Shown: piece after piece, positions 23,862 to 38,841 of the stretch
Position numbering within the stretch: the stretch's first letter is position 1
Layout of the letters: the number at the start of each line of letters is the position of its first letter
Origin: an uncultured Acidobacteriia bacterium
Lineage (GTDB): Bacteria; Acidobacteriota; Terriglobia; Bryobacterales; Bryobacteraceae
Assembly: GCA_903929755.1 (NCBI GenBank)
Contig: CAIYVZ010000002.1
Span: forward strand, 1 to 46,180
Length of the DNA stretch: 46,180 nucleotides
Direction: 5' to 3'
Position numbers and translations under genes: made by a program
The notes under the pieces: model-generated
Told to the model about the DNA's origin: nothing
What the model saw: the letters and a program-made list of their open reading frames with translations, nothing else
The model's database searches: none

Positions 23862-24830
23862 ATGCGGCCATTTGAGCCCCTTTTCCGCAACCCCCATGTC
23901 GCAACTGTCGTGGCCAACTTCTGGCCCCGCAAATACGACTATTCCGCGTACCCCATGCAGTCCCGGCTGGTGCAAACCGACCCCGACACGCAGGTTCTCG
24001 TTCAAACCCAGTTCCCCATAGGGAAACCCGTCGGCGAAGTCGTCCTCCTTCACGGTTTGGAAGGAGGCGGCAACGCCGGTTACTGCATCAGCAATGCCTG
24101 GCATGCTCTCGAACGTGGTTTTGTTGTGCACCGCTTCCACATGCGGACCTGTGGCGGCACCGAACACCTCTGCAAGACCCTCTATCACGCCGGGCTAACC
24201 AGCGATCTCCGCGAATTCCTCCTCCAGAACGCAGCGGAGGGCAGGGAACTCCCCGTCATCCTGATCGGCTACTCCCTCGGCGGCAACGTCGGCCTCAAAC
24301 TGGCAGGTGAGCTCGGCCACACCAACCTGATTGCCGGTGTCTGTGCCATCTCCACTCCCATCGACCTCGGTGCCTGCGCTCATCGCATGCGCGACGCCGA
24401 TAACCTCATCTATGAGCGCCGCTTCGTGAAACGCATGAAAATGCGGGTCTTAGCCACCGGTCGGGTCCCCGCCGAAACCCTCCTGCCGCTCCAGTCCATC
24501 TTCGACATCGACGAGTACGTCACCGCGCCGTCCTTCGGCTTCCGCGACGCTGAGCACTACTACCAGACCCAGTCCGCCAAAGTCTTCCTGTCACAGATCC
24601 GCGTCCCCGCCATGATCGTCCAGTCCAAAGACGACACATTTATCCCCTTCCGGATCTTCAGCAACCCCGCCATCGCTGCCAACCCCGCCATCCGCCTGGT
24701 TGTAACCGACCACGGTGGTCACCTCGGCTTCCTCGCCCGCAAAGGTCAACGCTTCTGGATGGTGGATTTCGCCATGGACTTCGCTGAGCAGGTTGTCCGC
24801 TCCGGCATTAGTGCGTCATCGAGTAAATAA
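23862..24830 (+). CDS. YheT-type alpha/beta hydrolase
   Basis: Member of the YheT/ABHD1-3 family of alpha/beta hydrolases (UPF0017). The oxyanion region is VVLLHGLEGGG. HRFHMRTCGGTEHLC is a YheT hallmark, the nucleophile elbow is LIGYSLGGNVGLK, and the acid and base are in QSKDDTFIPF and DHGGHLGFL. Its 322 residues are normal. Bacterial members are poorly characterised esterases. It starts 28 bp after the ANTAR gene on the same strand and probably shares its transcript. Its 3' end overlaps the convergent DUF4159 gene by 23 bp. Confidence 0.92.
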   Translation: MRPFEPLFRNPHVATVVANFWPRKYDYSAYPMQSRLVQTDPDTQVLVQTQFPIGKPVGEVVLLHGLEGGGNAGYCISNAWHALERGFVVHRFHMRTCGGTEHLCKTLYHAGLTSDLREFLLQNAAEGRELPVILIGYSLGGNVGLKLAGELGHTNLIAGVCAISTPIDLGACAHRMRDADNLIYERRFVKRMKMRVLATGRVPAETLLPLQSIFDIDEYVTAPSFGFRDAEHYYQTQSAKVFLSQIRVPAMIVQSKDDTFIPFRIFSNPAIAANPAIRLVVTDHGGHLGFLARKGQRFWMVDFAMDFAEQVVRSGISASSSK

Positions 24831-25686
24831 CATAGTTCGTTGCGATCCGAAACGCCATCGCCGAGAACTTTTCGTCGTACTTCGGATCGTCCGCCCATTC
24901 CCACGAGTCGCCCAGATCCATGTTGTGGCAAATCGCCACCATCAGACGGCCCTTTTCGTCGTAAATCCCGCGCCACCGAGCTTCGTACCCGTCCTGCTCG
25001 TACGTCACGCCCGACCGTAAATACTGCGCGCCGGGCACCTGATACCGATCATTCAAATCGAAAACGGTGTGGAAAATCGCATCCGAATTCGGAATGTCCA
25101 CCACAGGCCTGTCCGGAAACACCTTCTGCATGCTGACCATGAAGTTGGCCCACTCATACGTCCCGTGGAAGTCGTCCACCATAAGAAATCCGCCGCGATC
25201 CAGGTATTCGCGCAGCTTCGTCGCCTGTTGATCGGTCAGCGACCACTGCCCCACTTCCACCGCGTACATCCAGGGGTAGTTGAACACGTCGTCATCATCT
25301 TCCAGATTTACCGGTTGCTCCACCGACCGCACATGTACCCTGGTCAGCCGCCGAATCGCGGGCGAAACGTGCCGGTCCGCTCTCGGATAGTCTGTGGTCC
25401 AACTGCCGCCGCCCTCGCGCCAGTCGGAATTGCCGCGAAATCCGCCGAAGCCGCCAAAACCGCCGCCCCCGCGCCGTCCACCGCCGCCACGTCGTCCATT
25501 AGAGGGATACATCAGGCGCGCAAACTGCCACTCGGTCTTTTCCGCGTAGTCGGTGGGGAGGGGGTAATCGCCGTACTCTCGTCCCTGGTACTGGCGAAAC
25601 GCCTTCGGTTTTGATTCGAAGGCGTACGCAATCCCAATCAGGATCGTCAAACTCATACTTGCCGCGACCACCGTTCCAAGCCTCAT
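24808..25686 (-). CDS. Exported DUF4159 domain protein
   Basis: The N-terminus (MRLGTVVAASMSLTILIGIA) is a signal peptide or anchor. A Gly/Arg-rich low-complexity segment (about residues 66-88, RRGGGG and GGFGGF units) precedes the DUF4159 domain. The latter has FNYPWMYAVEVGQWSLTDQQ and GGFLMVDDFHGTYEW, and resembles a class I glutamine-amidotransferase-like fold without an obvious catalytic Cys. Function unknown. The first codons lie in the left copy of the direct repeat (25670-25757) that also occurs beside the ZIP gene 12 kb away, so its original upstream neighbour was probably that ZIP gene. Confidence 0.85.
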   Translation of the reverse strand: MRLGTVVAASMSLTILIGIAYAFESKPKAFRQYQGREYGDYPLPTDYAEKTEWQFARLMYPSNGRRGGGGRRGGGGFGGFGGFRGNSDWREGGGSWTTDYPRADRHVSPAIRRLTRVHVRSVEQPVNLEDDDDVFNYPWMYAVEVGQWSLTDQQATKLREYLDRGGFLMVDDFHGTYEWANFMVSMQKVFPDRPVVDIPNSDAIFHTVFDLNDRYQVPGAQYLRSGVTYEQDGYEARWRGIYDEKGRLMVAICHNMDLGDSWEWADDPKYDEKFSAMAFRIATNYVIYSMTH

Positions 25687-25757
25687 AGCATTCCGGTGGA
25701 CTCAGCGTATCACGGTATCCGGCTACCCGATTGTAAATTCGTTCGAATCCACCAGCC
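25670..25757. repeat. Direct repeat, left copy (ZIP-DUF4159 junction)
   Basis: About 88 bp matching 37766-37854 in the same orientation with roughly nine differences by eye, including a perfect run of more than 30 bases that ends at the right edge. It contains the DUF4159 start codon with its first 17 bases and the last codons of a ZIP gene. Together with the right copy it brackets the whole tad block. Confidence 0.85.
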
Positions 25758-25794
25758 CCGCGAAAAGGATCGCTCGTGAAGGTCGTCATCTCGC
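25710..25794 (-). pseudogene. Remnant of a ZIP transporter gene
   Basis: On the minus strand this stretch encodes WWIRTNLQSGSRIP and a stop, matching the end of the intact ZIP gene at 37807-38511 (WWIRTNLQSGSRLP). Just upstream, 25759-25794 matches 37984-38019 with three differences, encoding ARxRPSRAILFA where x is a TGA stop instead of TTA. About 130 bp between the two blocks is missing, which also breaks the frame. The rest of the gene is absent: the DUF362 gene ends 27 bp away. Confidence 0.85.
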
Positions 25795-25820
25795 TGGCCG
25801 TCAACGTCCCCGGCTCTCAG

Positions 25821-26801
25821 TTACGAGATGCGGAGCGATTCGAATTCCGGGATTACGGCAAACCGAGTGGCCACCGAGTGAATGGTTCCGCCGATTTGCT
25901 TCACGTTCTCTTCCTTCGTCTGCCCGTTCGTGGCGGTCAGGGCGATATAGGAAAGCTTCGCCGGGTCCAGGCCCATCACGCGACAGGCCGTGGCGTCCAC
26001 CGCTACCGGGTCTCTTCCCGCGATTAGAACTCCTGCGAGTTTGCGCGTCCCCTGAATCGGGCCATTCCCTTCCATTCCCACGATTCCATCCACCAGACAA
26101 AACTGCCGCGGAAACGCGGTATGAAGAGCCGCGATGCATTCGGGAATGCCGGACCAGTGGAGCAGGTTCTTCGGCCAGCCATAAACTCCACCGGGCACCA
26201 GACCAAACAGATTCTTCATGGCCAGGGTCGCGCCCGCCCAGTGGTGCGTTTTCATTTTCGGCAGCGAAACCAGCAGGTCGCACCGCAGCGCGCTGTTGGG
26301 TAGGTACAGAGACTCCAGATCGTTCGCCGGGCGTGCCAGCCGCACCTTGGTTACCTCGTCGAAGTTCAGATCCGTAAACAGCTTCTCGAAACCGGGTATT
26401 TCATCCGGATACCCCGCGGCTTCCGCCATATCGAGAGACCCTCGGCGATGGCCCGAGCCCTCACCGATGCGAACCTCCGCTGCTCCCAGCGAGCGAAATG
26501 CCTCCAGCGCGGCGTGAACCACCAAGGGGTGCGTATGAATCGGCACCTCGGCGTTGAACTCCACCAGATTGGGTTTCAGCAGGATGGACTTTCCTTTTAC
26601 TGCGATCCCATGCTCGGTCACGATGCGCCGAACTTCGTCGAACAACCCTTGTCCGTAGTCGGCAACGGGAGTGATCGATACGTGCGGCGCTGCTCCTGTC
26701 CGCTCCGGCCTCCGCACGGCCCGGTGCCCGCACGCCGGCAGTGAGGCCGCGCCGATGGCGGCTAACGCAGATCTTCTGCTGACGATGCCCGGGAAGTTCA
26801 T
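25821..26801 (-). CDS. Tat/lipoprotein-type DUF362 protein
   Basis: The ATG at 26801 gives MNFPGIVSRRSALAAIGAAS followed by LPACG, a twin-arginine signal with a lipobox-like Cys at residue 24. A longer frame reaching 26963 is read through the neighbour and is rejected. The DUF362 core has ILLKPNLVEFN, VRIGEGSGH, LVSLPKMKTHHWAGATLAMK then NLFGLVPGG, and VDGIVGMEGNGPIQG. No 4Fe-4S cysteine clusters are seen. DUF362 function is unknown. ATGA overlaps the stop of the alpha/alpha repeat gene, so the two are translationally coupled; it is the last gene of the tad transcript. Confidence 0.88.
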   Translation of the reverse strand: MNFPGIVSRRSALAAIGAASLPACGHRAVRRPERTGAAPHVSITPVADYGQGLFDEVRRIVTEHGIAVKGKSILLKPNLVEFNAEVPIHTHPLVVHAALEAFRSLGAAEVRIGEGSGHRRGSLDMAEAAGYPDEIPGFEKLFTDLNFDEVTKVRLARPANDLESLYLPNSALRCDLLVSLPKMKTHHWAGATLAMKNLFGLVPGGVYGWPKNLLHWSGIPECIAALHTAFPRQFCLVDGIVGMEGNGPIQGTRKLAGVLIAGRDPVAVDATACRVMGLDPAKLSYIALTATNGQTKEENVKQIGGTIHSVATRFAVIPEFESLRIS

Positions 26802-27697
26802 GGGGTAAACACATTCCTCCCCTGCGTGGCCGCGCTGGCGAGAACTTCGAGCGCAGTGTCGGTAATATCTCGGCTCGCCGCTTCCTTCTCGCCGGACGGA
26901 ACGGGTTGCCCGTACGCCACAAGCGCCAGTCGCAACCAAGCCCGCCCCTGGGCGGAACGGCACTCCGAATATTCCACGGCGGCGCGCTGCAGGGACCGTT
27001 CCAGGCCCTTACGTGGTACGCCGGTCAGGCCCAACAGGGCCACGCCGGTGGTCTCGGGATAAGACCCGGCCTCGTGACCCAACGCACGCGACGCTCCATG
27101 GTTCCAGCCTCCGTCCAGACATCGTCTGGCCACCAGAAAATCGCGGCCCAGCTGAATTCGTTCACCAACGCGCTGTCCCACATCGGCAGCCTGCAAAGCC
27201 AGGGTCTTTTCCAGCGCGCAAATCGCGATGCCCGTTGGCGCTACCCAAGCGGCCGTACCGGGGTACCAGGGCCAACCTTCAAAACCTTCGCGATCCCCAT
27301 TTCCCCCGCCCCAGAGCCATCGCTGGACCCGAAACCACACACCAGACTCCTTGCCGGACGTATCAAGCAGCCAGCGCACGCTAGGGGTTGACGGTTCTCC
27401 GGTGGCCTGCGTGAGCGCCAGCAACGCCAGCGCCGTGGCCCACGTCACGCTTTGGTCCACACGCGGGTTGGGTGGCCAGCCCCCATCGGGCCGCCGCGCG
27501 CGGCGCAACCACTCCACGCCGGCACGCACCGATAGCGCGTTCTCTTCCGGCCTGGTACTCACAGCCAGAAGCGCGAGCGCGGTGGGTTCGGTCCATGACG
27601 CAAGGCCATAGCCCCAGCCCCCGTCGGCCTGCTGCCGCGCGGCGATCGATGCAGCTCCCTGCCGGGCTTCCGGTATTCCCGATCCTCTCAAAAACAT
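26798..27697 (-). CDS. Squalene-cyclase/prenyltransferase-like alpha/alpha repeat protein
   Basis: About 299 residues built of helical-pair repeats with QW-like motifs: ARQQADGGWGYGLASW, RRARRPDGGWPPNPRVDQSV, RRCLDGGWNHGASRA. These repeats form alpha/alpha toroids, as in terpene cyclases, prenyltransferase beta subunits and complement-like proteins. The DXDD cyclase motif is not seen, so it is unlikely to be a cyclase. It has no signal peptide. The ATG at 27697 follows AAGGCGG at 7 bases; a GTG at 27715 is the alternative. It starts 28 bp after the small membrane protein gene and overlaps DUF362 by 4 bp, suggesting a shared task with the pilus or its neighbours. Confidence 0.82.
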   Translation of the reverse strand: MFLRGSGIPEARQGAASIAARQQADGGWGYGLASWTEPTALALLAVSTRPEENALSVRAGVEWLRRARRPDGGWPPNPRVDQSVTWATALALLALTQATGEPSTPSVRWLLDTSGKESGVWFRVQRWLWGGGNGDREGFEGWPWYPGTAAWVAPTGIAICALEKTLALQAADVGQRVGERIQLGRDFLVARRCLDGGWNHGASRALGHEAGSYPETTGVALLGLTGVPRKGLERSLQRAAVEYSECRSAQGRAWLRLALVAYGQPVPSGEKEAASRDITDTALEVLASAATQGRNVFTP

Positions 27698-27725
27698 TCG
27701 GTTTCCGCCTTGCACGTCTGCCGGA

Positions 27726-27833
27726 CTATAGCTTATTTCGCTTATTCCTGCGGGCCAGATAGGCTACCAAAAGCACGCCCGCAATCGCCCAAAGCATGAT
27801 CAGTGTGTTCGAACTCATCGTAAAATTACTCAT
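27726..27833 (-). CDS. Small single-pass membrane protein (35 aa)
   Basis: Too short for ordinary gene callers. The ATG at 27833 is preceded by GGAG at 6 bases, a good ribosome site; an ATG at 27845 would add four residues. The protein is MSNFTMSSN, then the hydrophobic helix TLIMLWAIAGVLLVAYLA, then a basic tail RRNKRNKL. This predicts an N-out, C-in single-span inner-membrane peptide. It lies 21 bp after tadC and 28 bp before the alpha/alpha repeat gene on the same strand. No homologue is recognised. It could be a Tad accessory factor or a membrane anchor for the downstream proteins. Confidence 0.6.
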   Translation of the reverse strand: MSNFTMSSNTLIMLWAIAGVLLVAYLARRNKRNKL

Positions 27834-27854
27834 TTGGAACTCCATTTCCGCCAC

Positions 27855-28778
27855 CTATTTAGCATTCTGCAGAGTCGGCAGCAGCACTCTTACAACCTGA
27901 ATCAATCCCGGACCGGCTACTACCAGAGCCATCGACGGAAGGATTAAAAAGCAAATCGGAAAAACCAGCTTCACTCCCAGCTTTCCGGCGCGCTCTTCAG
28001 CAGCCAGCCTGCGGGTCACGCGCATGAAATCGGCATGCGTACGCAACGCGTCCCCGATACTGGTTCCAAAGCGGTCCGTCTGAGCCAGCACGGCCACCAG
28101 TTTTCTCACTTCCGGCTCACCTGTTCGTTCCGCAAGATGATGCAGCGCTTCAATGCGGGGCTTCCCGGCACGCATCTCCAGCGAGACCAGGGAGAATTCA
28201 TCGGTTACATCTTTGTGTGCGCTGCGAAGTTCCCTGGTCACGCTGACAAACGCCTGATCCAGCCCCACACCGGATTCAACCGCGATCACCATCAGATCCA
28301 GGGCGTCGGGCAACCCGATTCTCAGCCTTCGCCGCCTGGTTGAGACCATGTGCTCGAGGACGAGATGGGGCCCGCCGTACCCCACCACTCCGGCTGCAAC
28401 GTAAAGCACAATTCTGACAGTAGTTTGCGCACTTATAAGTGGAACCACGAAGAGCGCGGCAACCAGCGCCACCGCGCATACCATCACTTTGATTCCGTAG
28501 TAAAAAGTTACGGCTTTCTCCGACCGGAATCCAACAGTTGTGAGGTAGCGGCGAGCGAGCGTCGCGGCCTCCTTCGAGACAGGCACCGCCCCGCCAATCC
28601 GTTCGATAACGCGGGCGGCAACCCGGGTCCGGCCCGATGCCGCGTCGGGCGGGCGCGAAGCGCTCTCCGCGCTGAGTTGCTCAAAGAACCGTGCGGGACG
28701 GACATATGCTCGGTAACCGTAAAGTACGATGACCGTGCCGAGAATGAAGAACAGCACAATGGAAATTAGCGCAGCCAT
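27855..28778 (-). CDS. tadC: Tad pilus inner-membrane platform protein TadC
   Basis: Type II secretion F-domain protein. TM segments lie at the N-terminus, near residues 95-135 and at the C-terminus. The cytoplasmic F domain has LPDALDLMVIAVESGVGLDQ, LVSLEMRAGKPRIEALHHLA and LVAVLAQTDRFGTSIGDALR, the TadC-type signature. With TadB it forms the platform that couples the TadA ATPase to pilus assembly. Its 307 residues are normal. It starts 4 bp after the tadB stop. Confidence 0.93.
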   Translation of the reverse strand: MAALISIVLFFILGTVIVLYGYRAYVRPARFFEQLSAESASRPPDAASGRTRVAARVIERIGGAVPVSKEAATLARRYLTTVGFRSEKAVTFYYGIKVMVCAVALVAALFVVPLISAQTTVRIVLYVAAGVVGYGGPHLVLEHMVSTRRRRLRIGLPDALDLMVIAVESGVGLDQAFVSVTRELRSAHKDVTDEFSLVSLEMRAGKPRIEALHHLAERTGEPEVRKLVAVLAQTDRFGTSIGDALRTHADFMRVTRRLAAEERAGKLGVKLVFPICFLILPSMALVVAGPGLIQVVRVLLPTLQNAK

Positions 28779-28782
28779 GGCC

Positions 28783-29745
28783 TTATACCTCGAAATCCAC
28801 GATCCGCCGTATCACGAAATAACCAATGATTTGACCCGCTGCCGCCCCCATGATCAGGTACTTGCCGAGGGGGTCTCTCTGCAGTATCTGTAAATACTGC
28901 GGTGATGTCACCATCAGAAACATGGTGACGCCTGCGGGCATGGCCATCAGTACAACTGAAGTCATCCGCCCGTGAGCGCTGGTGGCTCGTATTTTGCCGC
29001 GCAGAGCGAAGCGCTCGCGAATAACACCGGCCAGCTTGAGTAGTACTTCGCTGAGATCTCCGCCGGTCTGCCGCTGCAGTGTCACTGCGGCGGCGAAGAA
29101 CTGCAGGTCCACCAGCGGCACGCGCGCGATAAGTGCCTCCAGCACACCCGGCAAAGGAGCCCCCAGGCTGTGTTCCATACAAAGTGTCCTGAACTCCTGA
29201 CCCAGCGGGTCCGGCGATTCATCCGCCATAATTCTCAGGCTGATGGTGAAAGCGTGACCGGCGCGCATGGCGCGGGCCAGGAAATCCAGCGCGTCGGGCA
29301 GTTGCTGCTCAAAGTCGCGCAGCCGCTTGCGGCGTTTCGAGACAATAACAACAAGTGGCACCAGCCCTGCGGCCAGAGCCAGCGCTGCGCTGCTGGACGC
29401 CGTGAAAAACAATACATGAAGGCGCGTCCCCAGAACCGCACCGCACACCGCGCAGATCCCCATGGCCAAAAGCACAGCCTTTGGGCTCCACGTGAGCCCC
29501 GCCTGCCGGATCCGCAGTTGCAGCGTTCGGTTGAAATTGAAGCGCTCCAGAATTCCCTCCAGCGGATGTCTCCCCGGTGCCAGGAGAATGGGAGTCAGTG
29601 GCCGGACAGCGGGCGAGTTGACCTCCCGAAGCGCCTCCTTCATGGCAGCCTTCCGCCGGGCCGACAGATAACGATTCATCAGCAGCAGAGAGGTAAGCAC
29701 CAGCCCGAATACGGGAACGAAGGTGAGAAAAAAGATGGATGGCAT
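28783..29745 (-). CDS. tadB: Tad pilus inner-membrane platform protein TadB
   Basis: Type II secretion F-domain protein paired with TadC. An N-terminal TM (IFFLTFVPVFGLVLTSLLLM) and a central hydrophobic pair precede the F domain, which has QQLPDALDFLARAMRAGHAF, LVDLQFFAAAVTLQRQTGGD and LSEVLLKLAGVIRERFALRG. Two C-terminal TM helices follow. Its 320 residues are typical. It lies 10 bp downstream of the tadA ATPase gene and 4 bp upstream of tadC, all translationally close. Confidence 0.93.
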   Translation of the reverse strand: MPSIFFLTFVPVFGLVLTSLLLMNRYLSARRKAAMKEALREVNSPAVRPLTPILLAPGRHPLEGILERFNFNRTLQLRIRQAGLTWSPKAVLLAMGICAVCGAVLGTRLHVLFFTASSSAALALAAGLVPLVVIVSKRRKRLRDFEQQLPDALDFLARAMRAGHAFTISLRIMADESPDPLGQEFRTLCMEHSLGAPLPGVLEALIARVPLVDLQFFAAAVTLQRQTGGDLSEVLLKLAGVIRERFALRGKIRATSAHGRMTSVVLMAMPAGVTMFLMVTSPQYLQILQRDPLGKYLIMGAAAGQIIGYFVIRRIVDFEV

Positions 29746-29755
29746 AGTTCTCTCC

Positions 29756-31111
29756 CTAGGAAATGTCCACCGTAGTCTCGAATGTGGACGCCGGTAAACT
29801 CAGCCCCGCCGCAGTAATTCGCTCGTAAAACAGAGGCCTGATTCCGCAGGGCGAAAAACGCCCTTTTACTTTCCCTGTGGAGGTCAGCCCGGTTCGCTCA
29901 AACTTAAAAATGTCCTGCGTCGTGACCGTGTCTCCTTCAACGCCCACGCATTCCGTAATTCGTGTCACGCGACGCGAACCGTCACTCAGCCTGGCCACGT
30001 GGACGAAGAGATTTACAGCCGAGGCAATCTGCTGGCGAATGGCGCGGAAGCCGATGTTTGAGTTCGCCATGCCGACCATTACCTCCAGCCGCCCAATGGC
30101 GTCCCTCGGGCTGTTCGCGTGAATCGTGGTCAGCGATCCGTCATGGCCCGTATTCATGGCCTGCAGCATGTCGATGGCTTCCTCGCCGCGCACCTCACCC
30201 ACCACGATCCGGTCGGGTCTCATACGCAGCGCATTAATCACCAGTTGGCGGATTCCCACCCCGCCCTTGCCTTCGATGTTTGGCATGCGCGCTTCCATCC
30301 GGGCCACGTGTACCTGACGAAGCCGAAGTTCGGCGGTGTCTTCGATGGTGACGATTCGCTCCGTCTCCGGAATGAATTCGCTCAGGACATTGAGAAGCGT
30401 CGTTTTCCCAGCTCCCGTACCGCCGGAAATAAGGATATTCAGCCGTGCCAGTACCGCAGCCTCCAGAAGATCAAACATCTCTTTGGTCATCGTGAAATTC
30501 TGAATCAGATCAACGGGTTTGAGCGGACTCAGGCCGAAGCGGCGAATGGAAAGCAGCGGCCCGTCCACCGCCACCGGCGGGATCACTGCGTTCAGTCTGG
30601 AGCCGTCGGGCAATCGCGCATCTACCATCGGCGACGATTCATCGATGCGGCGCCCCACCCGCGAGACCATTTTTTCAATGATGCGAAGTAAGTGCGCATC
30701 GTCCCGGAACTGCACCGGAGCCGCGGTCAGTTTACCCGCCCGTTCCACGTACACCAGCCGCGGTGTGGTTACCAGAATGTCGCTGATGGTGGCATCCTGG
30801 AGGAGTGCCTCGAGCGGGCCAAGGCCGAAGACCTCGGCCATTACCTCTTCCACCATTCGGCTTTTTTCCGTAGCGGTCAGGGGTTGCCGTTCTTCGTCGA
30901 TCAACCGCAGGATCGCATCGCGAATTTCGGCCTGCTCCCGGTCCGGTGCCAGGGAAGAGAGGGCTTCCAGATTCACCCTCTCGATCAGCCGCCGGTGCAG
31001 GGTGAATTTGAGATCCTGATACTCCTCGCTTTCCAGTCGCGGCGTAAAGAGCCGACTAATCCAGCCTTCGTCCCGGGCTGCGTCGGGGTTTGATTTCAGT
31101 GCAGGAAACAT
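29756..31111 (-). CDS. tadA: Tad pilus assembly ATPase (TadA/CpaF)
   Basis: Type IV secretion/pilus motor ATPase of the VirB11/CpaF family. The N-terminal domain has [19 protein letters not shown] and [19 protein letters not shown]. Walker A is [19 protein letters not shown], with the Asp box [14 protein letters not shown], Walker B-like [20 protein letters not shown] and the His box [13 protein letters not shown]. Its 451 residues are normal. It acts at the cytoplasmic face, powering Flp polymerisation with TadB/TadC. Its ATG overlaps the tadZ stop by one base (TAATG). Confidence 0.96.
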
Positions 31112-32265
31112 TATGCCCTCGCAAACAATCTGAATTTCCTGTGTTCTTTCTCCGGCTGGCCCGTTAACCGGGAGGCGACCGCCGCAATCTGCTCGCCCAG
31201 CAGCGTCCCCGGTGAAACCAAACCGTTCTGGCAGTAAGCGTCCGAAATTCCCTCCGCGTCCTGCGGAATAGTGGCAAAGATCGGGAATTCGATCATGGTT
31301 TCCAGTTCCGAAACACTCACCTCCGGATGTCTGGGCATGAAGTTTACGATGAGCCTCAGGCGCTCGGCTGCGCAGCCGCCATTCAGTAAAGTCCGTATCG
31401 TCTGCCGCGCACGGTGCAGCGCCGGGATCTCCAGGGTGGTGACAAGGCAGGTCTCATCGATATCGGACATGGCGCCAAGGTTGAACCGCGTTACGCCCCG
31501 GCCAAGGTCCACCACCGTAAAGTCGTACTCCGAGCGCACGAAGTGGAAGAACTTCCCCGATTGACGAGGGTCCATCTCTGGCAGGAAGGGTTTTTCGGGC
31601 GCATTCAGAACGCTGATGCCGCTTGGCCCGGATGCGGCAAACGCCTGCCACATGCTGTGGTCCAGACGCTCCGCGTTCTGCAGCGCATCCACCACGCTGT
31701 ATTGCGAGGCCGCCTTGAGAAGGAAAGCGATAATACCCAGATCCGGATCGAAATCCGCCAGCAGCACCGATTTCTCGTACGAACGCCGCAATTCCGCCGC
31801 GACGTGGCACGCGATGGTGGTTGCGCCGCAGCCACCCTTCACCGAGAGAAAGCCCAGCGTTTTCCCCGCTGGCTCCGAATGGCTTCCGTTGGGGTCCTGC
31901 AGCAAACGTTTCAGCGATTTTCCGGTAGTGGCGTCGAACGGAGGATAGATGAATTCCGCAGCCCCCGCGCGCATGGCTCCCAGAATCGCTTCCGGGTCCG
32001 GATTGGCATGAATCACCACCACGGTGGGTGTGCCCGGAGCCGCACGCAGGGATTCGATAACCCGGGGTGGCGAGCCCCACATCCTGGGGATTTCGACAAA
32101 TACCATTTCCGGGCGCAGCCGCCCCATCTGTTCCACAAACGCATGCGCATCGCTGCCCGGCGACTGTTCGAAGACGATTTCGAGGCCCTGGTCCTGTGCC
32201 GCATGCCGAATTGCATTTCCCGCGTCTTCCGTATCCACGGCAATAGCTATGTTGGTTTTTCCCAT
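31111..32265 (-). CDS. tadZ: Tad polar-localisation ATPase-like protein (TadZ/CpaE)
   Basis: An N-terminal degenerate receiver domain (about residues 1-120, including MVFVEIPRMWG, AAPGTPTVVVIHANPDPEAI and GAAEFIYPPF) is followed by a ParA/MinD-like domain. The deviant Walker A is SVKGGCGATTIACHVA at about residue 140, then VLLADFDPDLGIIAFLL and YDFTVVDLGRGVTRFN. TadZ/CpaE positions the Tad machine at the cell pole or other focus. The receiver phospho-Asp position is not clearly conserved. Its 384 residues are normal. It is 12 bp downstream of cpaC and overlaps tadA by one base. Confidence 0.92.
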   Translation of the reverse strand: MGKTNIAIAVDTEDAGNAIRHAAQDQGLEIVFEQSPGSDAHAFVEQMGRLRPEMVFVEIPRMWGSPPRVIESLRAAPGTPTVVVIHANPDPEAILGAMRAGAAEFIYPPFDATTGKSLKRLLQDPNGSHSEPAGKTLGFLSVKGGCGATTIACHVAAELRRSYEKSVLLADFDPDLGIIAFLLKAASQYSVVDALQNAERLDHSMWQAFAASGPSGISVLNAPEKPFLPEMDPRQSGKFFHFVRSEYDFTVVDLGRGVTRFNLGAMSDIDETCLVTTLEIPALHRARQTIRTLLNGGCAAERLRLIVNFMPRHPEVSVSELETMIEFPIFATIPQDAEGISDAYCQNGLVSPGTLLGEQIAAVASRLTGQPEKEHRKFRLFARA

Positions 32266-32277
32266 GGTTGCCCGTCT

Positions 32278-33867
32278 CTATCTCGCGCCCGGATCGCCGC
32301 TACCCGCCGTGGGGGGAGCAGGCTGAGCGCCTCCAGTGGAAGCCGGCGCACTGATAGGCGTCGGCCGAAATTCCATCAGCGGAGCGGCTTGCGCAGCGGG
32401 CCGCGCAGTCTCTCGCTCTCTTCTCTGTATTTCGATCAACTGCTCCACCGGAATCGGCGCCAGCCGCACACCTGTTCCCGGGCCCGTGATGGCCACACCA
32501 GGAGTACGCGGGGCCGCTGACGACGTGTCCTTCAGGAACTCTTTTGGCATGTTTACACCGGGCAAGGGCGTACCCGCCGGAATCGGTTGCACAATCTCCG
32601 GTGTCACCAGCACAATCAACTCCGTATTGTTCTTACTGGTACTCCGCGACTGGAATATCTTTCCCAGCCACGGAATGTCTGCCAGCCCGGGTATCTTCGT
32701 CATAATCTCCGTCAGTCGGTTATCCAGCAGACCGCCGATGGCGAAGCTCTGGCCAGCTTCCAGTTCGATCTCACTCTGCACGCGTCTGGTGGTGAGACCG
32801 GGAATCGTGAACCCCTGGAACGTCAGGCCATTGGCATAGTCCAGAGCACTTACTTCCGGCGTAACCTGTAGCCGAATGGTGCCGCGCGGCGTCAGCAGAG
32901 GGCGAAATCCCAGCCGAATGCCAAACTCGCGGAACTGGATGGTAACGGACCCCAGGCCCGCGCCTCCGCCCTGCAGCGTTGGATAGGGAAACTCTCCGCC
33001 AGCCAGAAAACTGGCGCTTTTTCCGTTGATCGCCAGAACATTTGGCTCCGCAAGAACCTGCACCAGGTTACGCGACTGCAAATCCCGAATCGTGGCGCCG
33101 ATGTTCAGGTCGGGCCGAAATACAAAGATGTTCAGGGCGTCCTGCAACGTAAAGGTATTCTGCCCCGGGCTGCCCGAAGGCGCGTTGATGGTCCCGGGAT
33201 TCGGCTGCCCAAACTGTTGAGTGGAGATGCGGCCCGGAGTATTACCCGCCCCTGTACTCAGGAAGTTCACGCCAAACTGAGTGCTCACCGAGCGATCAAC
33301 CGTGGCGAACTTGACGCGCAACAGAATCTGCGGCTCCATGTCCGGTACTTCCACGCGCAATAAATTCACGGGCTTACCAAGTACGGAGGCAATCGCGGCT
33401 GCCCGGTCGGCACTCGCCAGGTTCTTTGCCACGCCCCGAAGAAACGGGACGCCGTTTTCCATCTCGATCTGAATGTTCTGGCCAGCCAGTTCGTCGCTCA
33501 ATTCCCGCTGTACACCCAGGTAGCCAGTGTCGTCCGGGCGCACGTGCAGCAGGTACATGGTCCGCCTCCCGCCTTGTTGCCACACAATCAGACTCGTGTT
33601 CCCCGGGGCCTTCCCGTTTACGACAATCTCCAGAGGGCTGATCACCACCGCATCCGCCACCTTCCCGTTCGCCACCGACACGCGGTCAATCGGCGTCTGG
33701 CTTTCAATCACCGCCGACCTGTCCACCGTTACATTGACATCCTCTGCGGATGCCGCCTGAACCTGCGGAGACGCCTGAACCTGCGGAGACGCCTGCGTTT
33801 GTCCGGTCAACGGAGAACCGAGACAGGTAATGAACACGATGACCGTGAAAATTAAAGGGGATGACAT
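32278..33867 (-). CDS. cpaC: Tad outer-membrane secretin (CpaC/RcpA)
   Basis: Outer-membrane channel for the Flp pilus. A signal peptide (SPLIFTVIVFITCLGSPLTG) is followed by a Gln/Pro repeat segment (two ASPQVQ units). The pilus-secretin N-terminal domain has VSVANGKVADAVVISPLEIV and NTSLIVWQQGG. The secretin domain has VLAEPNVLAINGKSASFLAG, FREFGIRLGFRPLLTPRGTI and SFAIGGLLDNRLTEIMTKIP, ending in the conserved VLVTPEIV. A Pro/Ala-rich C-terminal tail follows. Its 529 residues are typical. The ATG overlaps the cpaB stop by one base. Confidence 0.95.
   Translation of the reverse strand: MSSPLIFTVIVFITCLGSPLTGQTQASPQVQASPQVQAASAEDVNVTVDRSAVIESQTPIDRVSVANGKVADAVVISPLEIVVNGKAPGNTSLIVWQQGGRRTMYLLHVRPDDTGYLGVQRELSDELAGQNIQIEMENGVPFLRGVAKNLASADRAAAIASVLGKPVNLLRVEVPDMEPQILLRVKFATVDRSVSTQFGVNFLSTGAGNTPGRISTQQFGQPNPGTINAPSGSPGQNTFTLQDALNIFVFRPDLNIGATIRDLQSRNLVQVLAEPNVLAINGKSASFLAGGEFPYPTLQGGGAGLGSVTIQFREFGIRLGFRPLLTPRGTIRLQVTPEVSALDYANGLTFQGFTIPGLTTRRVQSEIELEAGQSFAIGGLLDNRLTEIMTKIPGLADIPWLGKIFQSRSTSKNNTELIVLVTPEIVQPIPAGTPLPGVNMPKEFLKDTSSAAPRTPGVAITGPGTGVRLAPIPVEQLIEIQRRERETARPAAQAAPLMEFRPTPISAPASTGGAQPAPPTAGSGDPGAR
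33755..33790. repeat. 18-bp tandem repeat inside cpaC
   Basis: Two perfect copies of an 18-bp unit (33755-33772 and 33773-33790) encode the doubled ASPQVQ hexapeptide just after the secretin signal peptide. The unit is a multiple of three, so copy changes keep the frame and only alter linker length. Confidence 0.85.
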
Positions 33868-34784
33868 TATTTCCTCTCCAGTGGTTCACTGAAGCGCGCC
33901 TGCGTGCGGTCATTACCATGGAGAACTTCCACCACACGGGAGCGTTCAACGAGCGGCTGTGCCACGGGGACAGGCGGCGCGGCTGCGGCTGTGGCGGCCC
34001 GAGGCTTTGGCTTCGGTGCCGGCGGGAGGTTCTGCGCGGGGGGGGGAGCTACAGGTGGCGCGCTCCGCCCGTCTGAGAAAAGGGCTTCCAGCGCAACGCC
34101 TCTGGTGGCGGTCTTTGTTACATCAAGCGGGTTGCGCAGTACCAGCTGAATTTTGGCCTCACTGGAGGCAAGACTGAGCAACTCAGCCTGTTCCGGCGTC
34201 ACCAGGAGGTTAATCACCGGCACAATTACGGGCTTTCCCTCCGAGTCCCTCTGCATGTTCTGCCCGGCCGACAGCACCGCAATATTTTGAAGGACTGTCC
34301 TCGAAACTTTGGTGGATACCGCGGCCCCGTTCATGGACGGCGGTGTGCCCGACGCCAGAACATCAACCTTCATCCCGGGAACCACAAAACCGGACACACC
34401 CGCTATGTCGTCAACGCGTACCGCGGCGGCGCGCATGCCGTGTGGAATGGTGGCCGCCAGGCCTCCTCCGGCCCCACGCGGGGCAAGGCGAGTCTCCACC
34501 ATCGGGTCGCCCTCGTATACCTCCTGAAGGACACCACGACCCACTACCTGATCCGCGCTTCGCAAAGCGCGCTTAGGCGTATACCCCCGCCATTCCACAC
34601 TCTTGATATCCGATGCCGAGAGGAGCGTTCCTACCGGAAGATCCCTGCTCGCCACCAGAAGCTGCGACGAACCGGACTGAGGGCCAACACCCAGCTTCGC
34701 CGAGATAATTCGGTAGACGACCGTACTGGCCAGGACCGAAACAATCAGTGCGAAGATGATAACAATTCCCAGCCGTCTGTTCAT
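33867..34784 (-). CDS. cpaB: Flp pilus assembly protein CpaB/RcpC
   Basis: One N-terminal TM (LGIVIIFALIVSVLASTVVY) is followed by a SAF-like domain with LLVASRDLPVGTLLSASDIK and VVGRGVLQEVYEGDPMVETR. The RcpC/CpaB domain follows, with GFVVPGMKVDVLASG and LLVTPEQAELLSLASSEAKI. The C-terminal tail (about residues 245-290) is Pro/Ala-rich. It is thought to work with the secretin in the periplasm. Its 305 residues are normal. It is the first assembly gene after the two pilin genes, separated from them by 139 bp that contain a strong hairpin. Confidence 0.93.
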   Translation of the reverse strand: MNRRLGIVIIFALIVSVLASTVVYRIISAKLGVGPQSGSSQLLVASRDLPVGTLLSASDIKSVEWRGYTPKRALRSADQVVGRGVLQEVYEGDPMVETRLAPRGAGGGLAATIPHGMRAAAVRVDDIAGVSGFVVPGMKVDVLASGTPPSMNGAAVSTKVSRTVLQNIAVLSAGQNMQRDSEGKPVIVPVINLLVTPEQAELLSLASSEAKIQLVLRNPLDVTKTATRGVALEALFSDGRSAPPVAPPPAQNLPPAPKPKPRAATAAAAPPVPVAQPLVERSRVVEVLHGNDRTQARFSEPLERK

Positions 34785-34864
34785 GGTTTTTCCCGGATGT
34801 AATCCGGCCTCTTATCCGCACTTCTTCAGAAACATCCGCCCGCGGGCAAAAGGAGTTTGCTACG

Positions 34865-34906
34865 ACCAGGACGGGTTGCTCTGACCCGAAGAGCACCCGC
34901 CCTGGT
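34865..34906 (-). promoter_or_regulatory. Strong hairpin between flp genes and cpaB
   Basis: In the minus-strand transcript ACCAGGGCGGGTGCTCT pairs with AGAGCAACCCGTCCTGGT: about 17 pairs with one G-U and one bulged A, closed by a 7-base loop. The wobble pair works only in minus-strand RNA, which fits the operon direction. It starts 17 bp past the last flp stop and has no T tract. The likely role is to protect the 3' end of an abundant pilin mRNA, or to attenuate transcription, so that pilins exceed assembly proteins. Confidence 0.65.
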
Positions 34907-34923
34907 CTCCGGGCGCGGTATCG

Positions 34924-35094
34924 TCAGCTTCCCGACAGCTGCGTGTTGGTGTTGGTCCAGACGGTTGTTATGGAGCCAGCCAGAGTGCCCAGCGTGGCCA
35001 CGGCCGCAACCGCGAGAATAGAAAGCAGCAGAGCGTATTCAACAAGGTCCTGCCCCCCGTCATCTCTCCAGAATCGCGTGAGGTTTTTGTTCAT
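34924..35094 (-). CDS. flp: Flp-type pilin, copy 1 (56 aa)
   Basis: Major pilin subunit of the Tad pilus. The short basic leader MNKNLTRFWRDDGG ends at the prepilin-peptidase site before QDLVEYALL, with Glu at +5 and Tyr at +6 as in Flp pilins. A hydrophobic helix (ALLLSILAVAAVATLGTLA) and a short polar tail follow. The ribosome site GGGAG is 5 bases before the ATG at 35094. The first 25 mature residues are identical to those of the neighbouring copy. It lies 59 bp downstream of that copy. Confidence 0.93.
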   Translation of the reverse strand: MNKNLTRFWRDDGGQDLVEYALLLSILAVAAVATLGTLAGSITTVWTNTNTQLSGS

Positions 35095-35153
35095 GAAATC
35101 TCCCTTCGTATCGCTTTTCGGAATAATTGCCCATGCCCGTGTGGCAGCGCAAT

Positions 35154-35324
35154 CTAGCTGGGTGCGATCAAATTGTTGACGGCCGTAAACCGGCCCGAGA
35201 TCGTGGTCGCGAGCGTTCCCAGCGTTGCCACGGCAGCAACCGCCAGGATACTCAGCAGCAGCGCGTATTCGACCAGATCCTGGCCAGATTCGTCTTTAAC
35301 AAAGGTCACAAAAAAGCGTTTCAT
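35154..35324 (-). CDS. flp: Flp-type pilin, copy 2 (56 aa)
   Basis: Second Flp pilin, promoter-proximal. The leader MKRFFVTFVKDESG ends at the predicted cleavage site before QDLVEYALL. AAAGGAG lies 7 bases before the ATG at 35324, the strongest ribosome site in the locus, fitting a highly expressed structural subunit. The mature N-terminal helix is identical to copy 1 over 25 residues, although 14 of those codons differ synonymously. The tails differ (TTISGRFTAVNNLIAPS here). Its promoter must lie in the long gap upstream (35325-35918). Confidence 0.93.
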   Translation of the reverse strand: MKRFFVTFVKDESGQDLVEYALLLSILAVAAVATLGTLATTISGRFTAVNNLIAPS

Positions 35325-35918
35325 GGTATTTCTCCTTTAAATTTTGCGGCTTCATTATCCTGCGGTCAGGTGAAGGACGCGGATGTAACTCCAGGTAACA
35401 GTGCAAGCGAACCATAGATTTGATTCCCCGGAGCGCTCTGTCCATTTGTGCTCATCCTGGTATAATCAACTGCACGATTGTGGCCATTCTCACGTTTCGT
35501 CATGCCAGCCAAACAGCCCCGGGGGCTTTTCGCTCTTATTTACCTCCTTGCGTTTCGCCGGAAAGTGCTCGATCGGGCAATGAATCGGCGAAATTTGGTG
35601 AATATTGCGGCTGAAGTGAAGGAAACAGGGAGACCGGGGGCTCGCGAGAAATGTGGGGTTATGCGTTGCGTAGTTGCCCAACGGAGAGCGCTCATACCGT
35701 TGTGCGCATGCTCAGGATGACCACTTGAAATCACGTGACCAAATACCGACACCGCCACCCAGTGCCGATTCGCGCCCGAATAGCTGCGTCATATAGCGGA
35801 AGCGCCAAACCACGACGACACGACAGGGAAGGGAAATAAGGAAAAGCAGGGAAATAAGGGAAAGCAGGGAAAGCAGGGAAAGCAGGGGAAGCCCCCCGCG
35901 ATCAAGGGCTGATTCTTG
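35325..35918. other. 594-bp gap between tadG and the flp genes
   Basis: I find no convincing gene. The flp promoter (minus strand) is presumably here, but no clear -35/-10 or -24/-12 pair stands out. A small GC hairpin with arms AGCCC and GGGCT lies at 35515-35527 followed by TTT on the plus strand. A purine-rich tandem repeat occupies 35825-35892 next to the tadG stop. Open frames at 35540-35758 (minus) and 35478-35720 (plus) show no domain or good start. Confidence 0.5.
35825..35892. repeat. Purine-rich short tandem repeat
   Basis: Three to four copies of a 9-bp unit AGGGAAAGC preceded by two related AGGGAAATAAGG blocks. The plus strand is almost pure purine; the minus-strand RNA is therefore a C/U-rich, G-poor run starting 27 bp after the tadG stop. 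Such a run resembles a rut site, so a Rho-dependent terminator is plausible. Confidence 0.75.
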
Positions 35919-36473
35919 CTACTGCACCAGGGCAACGGTTGTGGTCGGCGATCCCACAACATCCACGATGGCGGCCACGCTGCGCACCCTCACAGTTATC
36001 AATTGACTGCTTAGTATGCCGCCGAATATTTGTGGGATTTGGTCCGAGACTTCGGCCATCACCCAGTACTTTGTGGCCACTCCCGGTGCGAATAGCGACC
36101 CGTTGATACCCGAAGTGATGTTTACCACCTGATTGCCGCCGGTGGAAAACCCATTCTGCGCGGCGTAAAGACATGCGCTGTCCATGCTGGTGGGTGGGCT
36201 CGAGGGGCCCCTGCCCGTTGGGCAGCTTTCCGTCCCCGTCCGGCAAACTCCGCCCGTGGTGCACAAATTGTAATCGAGGCCGGGTTTGAGAAATCTAAAG
36301 GCCCTGGCAGCGCCGCCGAGTGCCGCCACGTCCGCCGCCGCCTGCGCCGATTCGCGAATAATATAGGCCAGACTAAGGTCTACCGCGAGCGCCATAAAAC
36401 TGAACACCACAAAAATTGCCAAAGCCACAAACACCAGGGCTTGTCCGCTGCGTCGGTTCCTTAGTCGTGGCAT
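35919..36473 (-). CDS. tadG: TadG-like pilus-assembly protein, short form
   Basis: The N-terminus RRSGQALVFVALAIFVVFSF is a prepilin-like Tad_N segment with a TM helix, followed by the typical SLAYIIRESAQAAADVAALG. Unlike the TadE proteins it has Phe, not Glu, at +5 of the putative cleavage site. The body contains a CTTGGVCRTGTESC cysteine region. At 184 residues it is much shorter than typical TadG proteins (commonly 400 or more), ending at TTTVALVQ before a low-complexity repeat, so it may be C-terminally truncated. It starts 4 bp after the upstream tadE. Confidence 0.85.
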   Translation of the reverse strand: MPRLRNRRSGQALVFVALAIFVVFSFMALAVDLSLAYIIRESAQAAADVAALGGAARAFRFLKPGLDYNLCTTGGVCRTGTESCPTGRGPSSPPTSMDSACLYAAQNGFSTGGNQVVNITSGINGSLFAPGVATKYWVMAEVSDQIPQIFGGILSSQLITVRVRSVAAIVDVVGSPTTTVALVQ

Positions 36474-36477
36474 AAGC

Positions 36478-36936
36478 TCAGAACTGAATCCTCTGCTGCG
36501 ACGAGGCGCGAAGCGTGATCGGCGGCAAAGTTGACGAACTCCCGGAACCCGGGAAGAAGATCCCTATCGGCGATTCAAACGGGTAAGTGGCGGTGAGACT
36601 GATATTCGTGCCCCGGGGCAATGCCGGCCACGCGCTGCCGCTGCCGAGGCAGGACGACAATGGACTACAGGACATCGTTCCGGTTACATTGATCTGATCC
36701 GACCGCAGGCCCTGGCTCGAATCGGCGATTCGCTGCGCGATGGCACCCACTGTACCTGGATTATTTTCTCCGTGAACAATGGCCATGCGGGTACCCTCTT
36801 TCACCGCATACGCCAAGGTATTGTACGTCCACATGCATCGCGAGATCTCGATGACCGATATAACGGTGAGGAGAATCGGAATGCCGGCGAGCACGAATTC
36901 AACCAGCACACTGCCACGCCGCGCCTGTCCCCTCAT
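36478..36936 (-). CDS. tadE: TadE-like pseudopilin (second copy)
   Basis: Prepilin-like minor subunit. MRGQARRG precedes SVLVEFVLAGIPILLTVISV, with Glu at +5 after the Gly, so it should be processed by the Tad prepilin peptidase. The globular part has MWTYNTLAYAVKEGTRMAIV, typical of TadE. Two cysteines (CSPLSSC) may bridge. Its 152 residues are normal. The start directly abuts the stop of the upstream tadE (no gap), and tadG follows 4 bp downstream. Confidence 0.9.
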   Translation of the reverse strand: MRGQARRGSVLVEFVLAGIPILLTVISVIEISRCMWTYNTLAYAVKEGTRMAIVHGENNPGTVGAIAQRIADSSQGLRSDQINVTGTMSCSPLSSCLGSGSAWPALPRGTNISLTATYPFESPIGIFFPGSGSSSTLPPITLRASSQQRIQF

Positions 36937-37416
36937 TTAGTCCGCCCTCAAAGGCATTTGCACGGATTTCACCAGTGTGACCGTGCCCGAAAAAAGGAGC
37001 GGAACCGGAACCAGGGGGATCGTTTGGTACGTTACCGTCACCAGTGCCGCCGGGCTGCCATCGATTCCCGCGTCCAGCTTCTGCGTTGTCACCTGGAGGG
37101 GCAGCCCCGCACATCCCGTGCTGGAACCGATGTTTGGCAGCGACTGCAGTTCCTGCCTGACTACCGCGCAGGCATCCGCTGCGTCGATCGCCGCCGCCGA
37201 GCTGGCAGACGCATTCAGCGCTGCGGCCCGCGCGGCATTCTGGACCCCGATGGCAGCCACGGTACAAAAGCCTGTATCCGCTATCGCGATGAACAGAAAA
37301 AAGATCCACGGTGCCACGATGACCAGTTCCACAAGGGCCTGGCCCTTCCTGCGTTGCGTATTCTGTGGCGATGCCTTCAAGCAGTTCTCATCCCTTTGTC
37401 GAGAGCAACAGGCCAT
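36937..37416 (-). CDS. tadE: TadE-like pseudopilin (first copy)
   Basis: Prepilin-like minor subunit at the head of the minus-strand tad block. The ATG at 37416 is chosen; a GTG at 37434 would add six residues. A long leader (MACCSRQRDENCLKASPQNT then QRRKG) precedes QALVELVIVAPWIFFLFIAI, with Glu at +5. GVQNAARAAALNASASSAAA is the usual helical segment after the TM. Cysteines at about 90-110 may form a disulfide. No gene lies upstream until the ZIP gene, so a promoter is expected in 37417-37765. Confidence 0.88.
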   Translation of the reverse strand: MACCSRQRDENCLKASPQNTQRRKGQALVELVIVAPWIFFLFIAIADTGFCTVAAIGVQNAARAAALNASASSAAAIDAADACAVVRQELQSLPNIGSSTGCAGLPLQVTTQKLDAGIDGSPAALVTVTYQTIPLVPVPLLFSGTVTLVKSVQMPLRAD

Positions 37417-37765
37417 TTCCCGGCTCAGTCGCACGGTCCTGAATCATCGGACAAGCTGCAACCAGAGGGCCATATCCTGTTATTGACCCGGGCGGCAGAT
37501 CTCGCGCCAGGTCAGCAGCCACGGTTCAGGTTCTATGTAATCAGGGATGAAGAAGGTGGCGAGGGCGGATTATGACAGCGTAATTTCTGCGCAATCCCGC
37601 GCTTCTGCGCTAATATGCGCATGGAATCCGGACCCGTGGGGTGCCAGAATTCGTCAAAACCCGCAGGCCTTTTTGATGCTGCGAGCGTTAGCTCGGGGGA
37701 GCCAGCGGCGCTTTCGTTTCCGCATTGCTGGTCTTACTGGTGAAGGTCTTACTGGTGAAGGTCTT
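37417..37765. other. Gap upstream of the tad block
   Basis: No gene recognised. It holds a small hairpin CGAGC-GTTA-GCTCG at 37682-37695 and a 15-bp tandem repeat (GGTCTTACTGGTGAA at 37730-37744 and 37745-37759, with a partial third unit) directly next to the right direct repeat. The tad promoter on the minus strand should lie here. A plus-strand open frame through the repeats looks like noise. Confidence 0.5.
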
Positions 37766-37769
37766 ACCG
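37730..37769. repeat. 15-bp tandem repeat
   Basis: Two perfect copies of GGTCTTACTGGTGAA followed by a partial third copy (GGTCTTAC) that runs into the direct repeat at 37766. It marks the junction where similarity to the DUF4159 start region ends, and may reflect slippage at a recombination joint. Confidence 0.8.
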
Positions 37770-37854
37770 TTCGAAGCCTCATGGCATTCCGGTGGCCTCA
37801 CCCTATTTACGGTAAGCGGCTACCCGATTGTAAATTCGTTCGAATCCACCAGCC
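37766..37854. repeat. Direct repeat, right copy (ZIP-DUF4159 junction)
   Basis: Matches 25670-25757 in the same orientation. It includes the 3' end of the intact ZIP gene, the intergenic bases, and an ATGAGGCTT start plus 8 bases of a DUF4159-like gene on the minus strand, after which similarity stops abruptly. Confidence 0.85.
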
Positions 37855-38511
37855 CTCCACCGCGTGCACGCCGAAAAACAGGAACGTGCCCGCCGCCACC
37901 GCCAAAATGTACGTCATCCACGAACCTGGCGCCGCGTGCAGACCTACAAAACCGCCCGCCACCGTCGGTGCCTCCGCCGCTACCGCGAACAGGATCGCTC
38001 GCGAAGGTCGTAATCTCGCCCCCCGCAGCAGGCCCCCCAGTGCGAACCCCTCCGGGATCTTGTGAAACAGAATCGCCCCGCCGATTGCCAGGGGCGCAAT
38101 GTGGCCCGCCGAAACTGCCGACATCCCCCACCCATCCACAAACGCATGAAGCCCCGTAGCCATAATGAACGCTTCGGCGAACGCTTCACCGTGTGAACAC
38201 GAAGGGCAGACCGGATATCCCAACTTGTCCAGCAGCGTCAGCGTCAGATAAGCTGCGGCGATTAAAGCCAATGGAATCAAGTATCCAGCCGCATGGACCA
38301 GCTCCGGCACCAGCTCGAACAACGTGACGCCCACCAGGACCACGCCGCTCACCGGAACCAGCAAACGCGCCCGGTGGCTGGCAATCACGATGCCTGCTAT
38401 GGCGCAAAGTATTGCGATTCCAGTAGCCACCACAGGGCCGAAAATGCCAGAGAGGGTCAAACCTCTACTGTAACCGCCCGGCGAATCCAGGCCAGCCCAT
38501 CCCCAATTCAT
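37807..38511 (-). CDS. ZIP family metal transporter
   Basis: Inner-membrane divalent-metal (zinc/iron) permease. About seven hydrophobic helices are visible: VVATGIAILCAIAGIVIA, LLVPVSGVVLVGVTLFELVP, YLIPLALIAAAYLTLTLL and later segments. The ZIP metal-site motifs are TGLHAFVDGWGMSA and LFHKIPEGFALGGLL. A CPSCSHGEAF loop between helices 3 and 4 may bind metal. Its 234 residues are short but complete for the GufA/ZIP type. The ATG at 38511 is preferred to a TTG two codons earlier. Its last codons lie in the right direct repeat, and a decayed copy of its 3' part lies at 25710-25794. Confidence 0.9.
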   Translation of the reverse strand: MNWGWAGLDSPGGYSRGLTLSGIFGPVVATGIAILCAIAGIVIASHRARLLVPVSGVVLVGVTLFELVPELVHAAGYLIPLALIAAAYLTLTLLDKLGYPVCPSCSHGEAFAEAFIMATGLHAFVDGWGMSAVSAGHIAPLAIGGAILFHKIPEGFALGGLLRGARLRPSRAILFAVAAEAPTVAGGFVGLHAAPGSWMTYILAVAAGTFLFFGVHAVEGWWIRTNLQSGSRLP

Positions 38512-38841
38512 GCGCAAATAGCGAATCTCATTCCGAGGCCTGTCACCCCCCTCAATGTGGGAATTCCAGCCAGAAAGACGCAGCCGGTCCTCTGAAGACT
38601 CCCTCTCCCCTCACTCGCCTGTCCCCCGGCCACGCCTGTCTCCCCCGGGCGCAGGCGCAGCTATTCGGGTCCCGGCTTCCTGCCAGAGTAGTATCATAGT
38701 CAGACGTGGGGCTTTGTTCCCCGGCATTGTCTTGCCGGGTGCCGTCGGTCACTCCGACGAAACGACTCCGCCCTTCGTACGTCGTTATGTAATGCAGCAA
38801 AGCATCATGCACCAAGGCACCATCCGGCTAACTACACAACT
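38512..38841. other. 330-bp gap upstream of the ABC operon
   Basis: No gene recognised. It contains a C-rich, G-poor stretch (about 38600-38660), a hairpin with perfect arms CCCGGCA and TGCCGGG at 38720-38739, and then about 100 bases of leader before the ATG at 38842, which lacks a Shine-Dalgarno. TAGTATCAT at about 38691-38699 could be a -10 region. The hairpin would then lie in the 5' untranslated leader of the ABC operon. Confidence 0.45.

Follow-up and report, generated by a model that had tools for sequence, protein, structure and literature searches.

Tad/Flp (type IVc) pilus loci are characterised by genes for the TadA ATPase, the platform proteins TadB and TadC, a secretin, CpaB/RcpC, CpaE/TadZ and TadE/TadG proteins. 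Here, we describe a tad locus of this kind in a stretch of 46,180 nucleotides (the window; contig CAIYVZ010000002.1, positions 1 to 46,180, assembly GCA_903929755.1) from an uncultured Acidobacteriia bacterium of the Bryobacteraceae. The locus is bracketed by direct repeats and separates a gene for a ZIP metal transporter from a gene for a DUF4159 protein. Insertion of a foreign cassette between these two genes is well supported.

A comparative account of filament systems describes Tad systems as frequently transferred (PMC6668835). Like other laterally transferred Tad/Flp loci, the one described here is a single-locus tad set with a xenologous TadA; it differs from them in that the landing is visible, with both junctions and a 254-bp duplication, although neither an integrase nor a transposase nor a tRNA was seen in the window. 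Among the described ways of insertion, a single crossover (Campbell type) with a conjugated plasmid in Escherichia coli left, according to the section on sequenced clones, partial duplications, with 109-950 bp of the chromosome repeated directly on either side of the insert (PMC3240628). The anatomy here is similar; however, that plasmid was built with host homology, whereas here no such source is known. In pneumococcal transformation, interchromatid integration, in which incoming DNA paired with two chromatids duplicates junction-side host DNA, is outlined in PMC3784515 and is alike in kind, but the duplications given there are ~100-900 kb long and arise via chromosomal repeats, whereas here the duplication is 254 bp. 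Finally, homology-facilitated illegitimate recombination captures foreign linear DNA at an illegitimate junction, as may have happened here; as presented in the relevant part of PMC3240628, it generally deletes host DNA, whereas here host DNA appears to have been duplicated.

Direct repeats and the split gene pair

The repeats are in the same orientation (25670-25758 and 37766-37855) and differ by 8 substitutions in 89 compared columns and by 1 indel. Their first segments (25670-25710/37766-37806) are 88% identical and their second segments (25712-25758/37809-37855) 96% identical, at a spacing of 12,096-12,097, and the longest run of identity between the copies is 39 nt. An earlier note, made from the sequence alone, had described repeats of about 88 bp with some nine differences, which agrees with our count. 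Its account of their extent holds for the first ~89 nt, but a second piece of homology beyond a gap (25758-25794 and 37983-38019, 34/37 identical) had been overlooked. The right copy is a single 254-bp stretch, to which the left copy (125 nt) corresponds except that it lacks ~128 bp in the ZIP part; the ZIP scrap on the left thus consists of two pieces with these ~128 bp gone between them, and it carries an in-frame TGA in place of a TTA in the right copy. As the note had stated, the intact ZIP gene is on the right (236 amino acids (aa)) and the intact DUF4159 gene on the left (292 aa), while the right copy retains 17 nt of DUF4159, counted from its ATG. No more ZIP or DUF4159 fragments were detected past either junction (best E >=0.49 in three comparisons). 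When the left copy was compared with its own assembly (212 contigs, 6.86 Mb), the three matches at E<=0.001 were all at this locus. Thus, the repeat is not dispersed, a possibility that the note itself had raised against its reading.

To place the locus, we used a genus sample of 19 genomes, including this one (G000). ZIP directly before DUF4159, without tad genes, was found in three of the 18 other genomes, i.e. G008, G003 and G016, in which the ZIP protein is 80%, 76% and 66% identical, respectively. A ZIP match was present in 16 of the 19 genomes (not in G005, G009 and G014), and among the matches listed, the other 12 ZIP-bearing genomes had no adjacent DUF4159 and 15 of the 18 congeners no adjacent pair. 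No congener with tad at this site was seen. G016 is syntenic with the window on both sides and in the same order, with three ABC-transporter genes on one side and genes for an alpha/beta hydrolase, a GAF-ANTAR protein and a dehydrogenase as well as dxr on the other. G003 has kept part of the flank on the DUF4159 side. G008 has kept the pair, its DUF4159 having an internal gap (residues 62-147 unmatched); neither flank was seen in the stretch of this genome that was examined, and its ABC orthologue is on a different contig.

A simulated crossover in the 39-nt run removed 12,097 bases and gave a ZIP protein of 236 aa, a gap of 23 nt and a DUF4159 protein of 292 aa; in all three relatives, the gap between the two genes is also 23 nt. 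The earlier note had proposed both that ZIP and DUF4159 are an ancestral pair and that recombination between the repeats would restore it. The former is borne out by the three relatives with no tad between the genes, and the latter by the simulated product, which has both open reading frames (ORFs) and the spacer of the relatives. Excision of the cassette through the repeats is therefore predicted.

The 23-nt leader between the ZIP stop and the DUF4159 start (25687-25709) is shared unchanged by the left copy, G003 and G016, and G008 differs from it at one position; it is this conserved although the ZIP and DUF4159 proteins differ by ~10-34%. DUF4159 proteins are multi-copy, with at least 6 in this genome and from at least 3 to at least 12 in congeners among the matches listed. 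We found no literature pairing DUF4159 with Acidobacteria; no other search for print reports of this locus was made.

Relatives and content of the inserted block

We searched 399 class and 237 family genomes, two overlapping sets, with strict E cut-offs. The nearest TadA was that of G256, a genome of another genus, with 87% identity, and the next best matches had 72-74%. In congeners, TadA was 67-68% identical near full length, and a partial match in G012 was 72% identical over 304-305 residues. In a TadA tree of 16 rows, G000 and G256 were paired with support 100/100, on a long branch and away from the other congener rows; this tree excluded the congener rows G005, G009 and G012 as well as second copies without a locus, and it gave long-branch warnings elsewhere. 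In a second tree, to which the partial G012 row was added and from which six distant rows were dropped, the pair was still supported at 100/100, and G012 grouped with G003 and G016. By contrast, the flank proteins dxr, ABC ATPase and a NAPRTase-like protein were 65%, 68% and 62% identical in G256, but 81-93% identical in those congeners in which they were detected (the ABC search gave none in G003). The far higher identity of TadA than of the flank proteins to G256 indicates lateral acquisition. In total, it is well supported by these comparisons that TadA is a xenologue and that a transfer took place, but not in which direction or by which route. The DNA similarity to G256 (75%) spans 25822 (DUF362 stop) to 32057 (inside cpaE). 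In G256 itself, the cassette ends abruptly within cpaE, next to a remnant of an IS66-type transposase (L127:13047-13685). Base composition gave no sign of foreign origin, the G+C content being 0.597 in the block and 0.598 in the flanks.

All of the Tad/Flp core components named above are present in the block by Pfam matches (Table 1), and every tad, squalene-hopene cyclase C-like (SQHC-like) and DUF362 gene that was identified between the repeats lies on the minus strand, as the earlier note had claimed. Two genes match PF00482; we take them to be tadC and tadB on the basis of their position. The two Flp-like ORFs are a closely similar tandem pair between cpaB and the TadG-like gene. No prepilin peptidase (TadV/CpaA) was detected in a search that covered the scanned ORFs of the block but not the remainder of the genome. 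Elsewhere in this genome, there is another tadA-like frame (G000:C97:42224-43534), which includes one TAA.

Table 1. Features of the tad locus and its junctions, with positions in the window.
Feature	Position	Strand	Remarks
DUF4159 gene, intact ORF of 292 aa; second member of the split pair	24808..25686	-	PF13709; 88% identical in G003
Left repeat copy: DUF4159 first 17 nt, 23-nt leader, ZIP 3' end, second ZIP piece (25758-25794)	25670..25794	.	
Inserted block, ~12.0 kb	25795..37765	.	absent between ZIP and DUF4159 in G003, G008, G016
DUF362 gene	25821..26963	-	PF04015; 76% in G256; stop codon 26 nt from left junction
Alpha/alpha repeat (SQHC-like) gene	26798..27715	-	PF13243
tadC	27855..28778	-	PF00482; name by position
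tadB	28783..29745	-	PF00482; name by position
tadA/cpaF ATPase gene	29756..31111	-	PF00437; 87% in G256
cpaE/tadZ	31111..32265	-	PF13614
cpaC secretin gene	32278..33867	-	PF00263, PF13629
cpaB/rcpC	33867..34784	-	PF16976
Flp pilin-like ORF 1, 56 aa	34924..35094	-	resembles ORF 2; no Pfam match
Flp pilin-like ORF 2, 56 aa	35154..35324	-	PF04964, E=5.8e-7, 29.7 bits, below curated cut-off of 32.2
TadG-like gene	35919..36473	-	PF13400
TadE-like gene 1	36478..36936	-	PF07811
TadE-like gene 2	36937..37434	-	PF07811
Junction filler, 15-bp unit x2.4	37730..37765	-	like ZIP piece at left junction (12/14)
Right repeat copy (254 bp): DUF4159 17 nt, decayed leader, ZIP 3' part	37766..38019	.	
ZIP metal transporter gene, intact ORF of 236 aa; first member of the split pair	37807..38517	-	PF02535

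SQHC-like and DUF362 matches occur together with tad at 12 of 18 tad loci examined (9/12 and 3/6), which points to a recurring neighbourhood; in the loci L083 and L132, these matches are some kilobases away from tadA. Nine stretches of eight congeners that contain other tad loci gave several direct repeats of >=30 nt, none of which brackets a tad cassette in the way seen here; some of these stretches end near the cassette.

Among 43 window ORFs scanned, three of which matched no family, none belonged to an integrase, transposase or relaxase family, and no tRNA was found in the window. A site-specific integrative element, which would have an integrase gene and an attachment site that is often a tRNA, was rejected, as there was neither a recombinase family among the scanned ORFs nor a tRNA in the window; likewise, a unit borne by a transposon or insertion sequence, for which a transposase, inverted repeats at the ends and a short target duplication would be expected, was rejected on the lack of a transposase among these ORFs and on the length of the duplication (254 bp). 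Between 20000 and 46180, there was one inverted pair of >=30 nt, which is not at both junctions. Scans for promoter and terminator consensus at both junctions gave matches at chance level.

Origin of the repeats and route of entry

With G003, G008 and G016 as outgroups, six of the 8 substitutions fell to the right copy alone, one to the left copy alone, and one was unclear. The six changes in the right copy comprise four in the 23-nt leader, one at the ZIP stop codon and one in the last ZIP codons; the inserted base of this copy is also at the ZIP stop codon, which is still a stop. At two sites, both copies agree with each other and differ from all three relatives. Moreover, the copies match each other far better in the inner ZIP piece (34/37) than they match the relatives (15-23/37). 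On these alignments, both copies appear to be of host origin and to have decayed after the insertion. The copies differ at 11/126 sites (~9%), whereas uncorrected divergence at fourfold sites is 0.59-0.66 for G003 (three genes) and 0.47 and 0.53 for G016 (two genes). Thus, the event looks much younger than the splits from G003 and G016.

It is well supported that, once the lineage of this genome had separated from G003, G008 and G016, a tad-SQHC-DUF362 cassette, the left half of which is nearest to that of another genus, entered this lineage between ZIP and DUF4159; that 254 bp (ZIP end, leader and DUF4159 start) were left on both sides of the insert; and that the redundant pieces then decayed, whereas one complete copy each of ZIP and DUF4159 survived. 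The duplicated bases would be the host's own. For the route, we slightly prefer an illegitimate insertion in one step that duplicated a long target, to which we give somewhat better than even chances; a single crossover ranks second and a duplication that preceded the insertion third. In a one-step insertion without a dedicated recombinase, incoming linear DNA might be caught between two staggered ends, e.g. on sister chromatids or by template switching, and such a capture would leave the target duplicated over a long stretch and templated filler sequence at one of the junctions. At the right junction, the filler agrees with the ZIP edge of the left copy at 12/14 positions, which was equalled in 5 of 3000 random draws of 40 nt (draws overlapping the filler were skipped yet counted in the 3000) and in 1 of 600 draws of 125 nt; a 21-nt pattern from the filler occurred nowhere else in the assembly at <=3 mismatches. 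The match suggests template switching during insertion.

The earlier note had called the locus the exact product of integration of a circle by homologous recombination. According to this explanation, a single crossover integrated a circle that carried tad together with a ZIP-DUF4159 segment, and the reverse crossover would excise it. The anatomy fits, with repeats that bracket the insert and a crossover product that restores the pair; the 39-nt identical run could be the crossover point, the E. coli clones cited above provide a precedent, and Tad systems are, in the part of PMC6668835 that compares filament systems, the ones most frequent on plasmids. However, the circle must already have held ~254 bp of this lineage's own ZIP-DUF4159 region. 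The sole close relative of the cassette, in G256, is on an 18-kb contig without a ZIP or DUF4159 match, the ZIP match of G256 being on another contig and 42% identical, and no TadA with >=60% identity was present in the best 5000 of at least 5000 plasmid records. In addition, the differences between the copies resemble decay rather than donor divergence, and the filler suits an illegitimate insertion at least equally well. We therefore keep the anatomy and the ancestral pair from the note, consider "exact" an overstatement, since this anatomy can also arise by other routes, and regard the circle as possible but doubtful. A two-step route, in which a short tandem duplication from the ZIP end to the DUF4159 start arose before the tad cassette entered at the novel junction, could explain the ZIP-edge-like filler as a leftover of the DUF4159-ZIP tandem junction; it requires two events, the pair-bearing relatives show no tandem (0/3), and we consider this route unlikely.

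An error of assembly or binning, by which tad sequence was joined to the ZIP-DUF4159 locus via the common 39-nt run, is conceivable in a draft of this many contigs, and a circle that had truly been excised and coexists with an empty site could also be misjoined in the same way; however, the copies are ~9% different and have distinct decay, truncated gene pieces lie at both junctions, and the block equals its flanks in G+C, all of which makes this very improbable. Least credible of all is an ancestral tad block that G003, G008 and G016 have lost from this site, with repeats that are due to chance or internal to genes. Cassettes of tad, SQHC and DUF362 are common in the family, but in all three relatives the two genes are paired across an equal 23-nt spacer, TadA clusters with that of another genus, and the repeats are duplicated pieces of genes, a 254-bp duplication that largely contradicts this explanation.

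Several observations weigh against the one-step insertion of a foreign cassette. A circle that carried a host segment predicts an identical layout, and no second genome with the insertion, from which the steps could be ordered, was found. The left copy is slightly closer to G003 (83/89) than to the right copy (81/89), and in a small tree the split between the two copies and the relatives has a support of only 64; the host origin of the repeats, as read from these alignments, depends on few sites. The filler test was post hoc and on 14 nt. Finally, a close relative was found only for the left half of the block (25822-32057), and cpaC was at most 57% identical in the four genomes searched (G256, G003, G008 and G016).

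Consequences for the gene pair

DUF4159 now starts 134 nt after the DUF362 stop, instead of 23 nt behind ZIP as in the relatives. Judged from this arrangement, DUF4159 may be transcribed by read-through from the tad operon. Thus, a gene pair was broken, and one partner is now behind a foreign operon. Homologous recombination over the 39-nt run could cleanly delete the cassette. It would go considerably further, and we think it improbable, that the cassette is a self-contained unit that crosses genera of the family as circles or fragments via host recombination alone and that is still able to exit this site over the 39-nt repeat, thereby switching pilus carriage and ZIP-DUF4159 co-transcription.

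The acquisition is lineage-specific and of a known kind, with unusually clear edges. Both edges, a congener whose empty site has both flanks and, for half the cassette, a foreign relative are all available, and this combination makes an entry route without visible mobility genes testable. In total, the locus is a clear yet fairly ordinary trace of gene acquisition, in this case of a pilus locus of ~12 kb.

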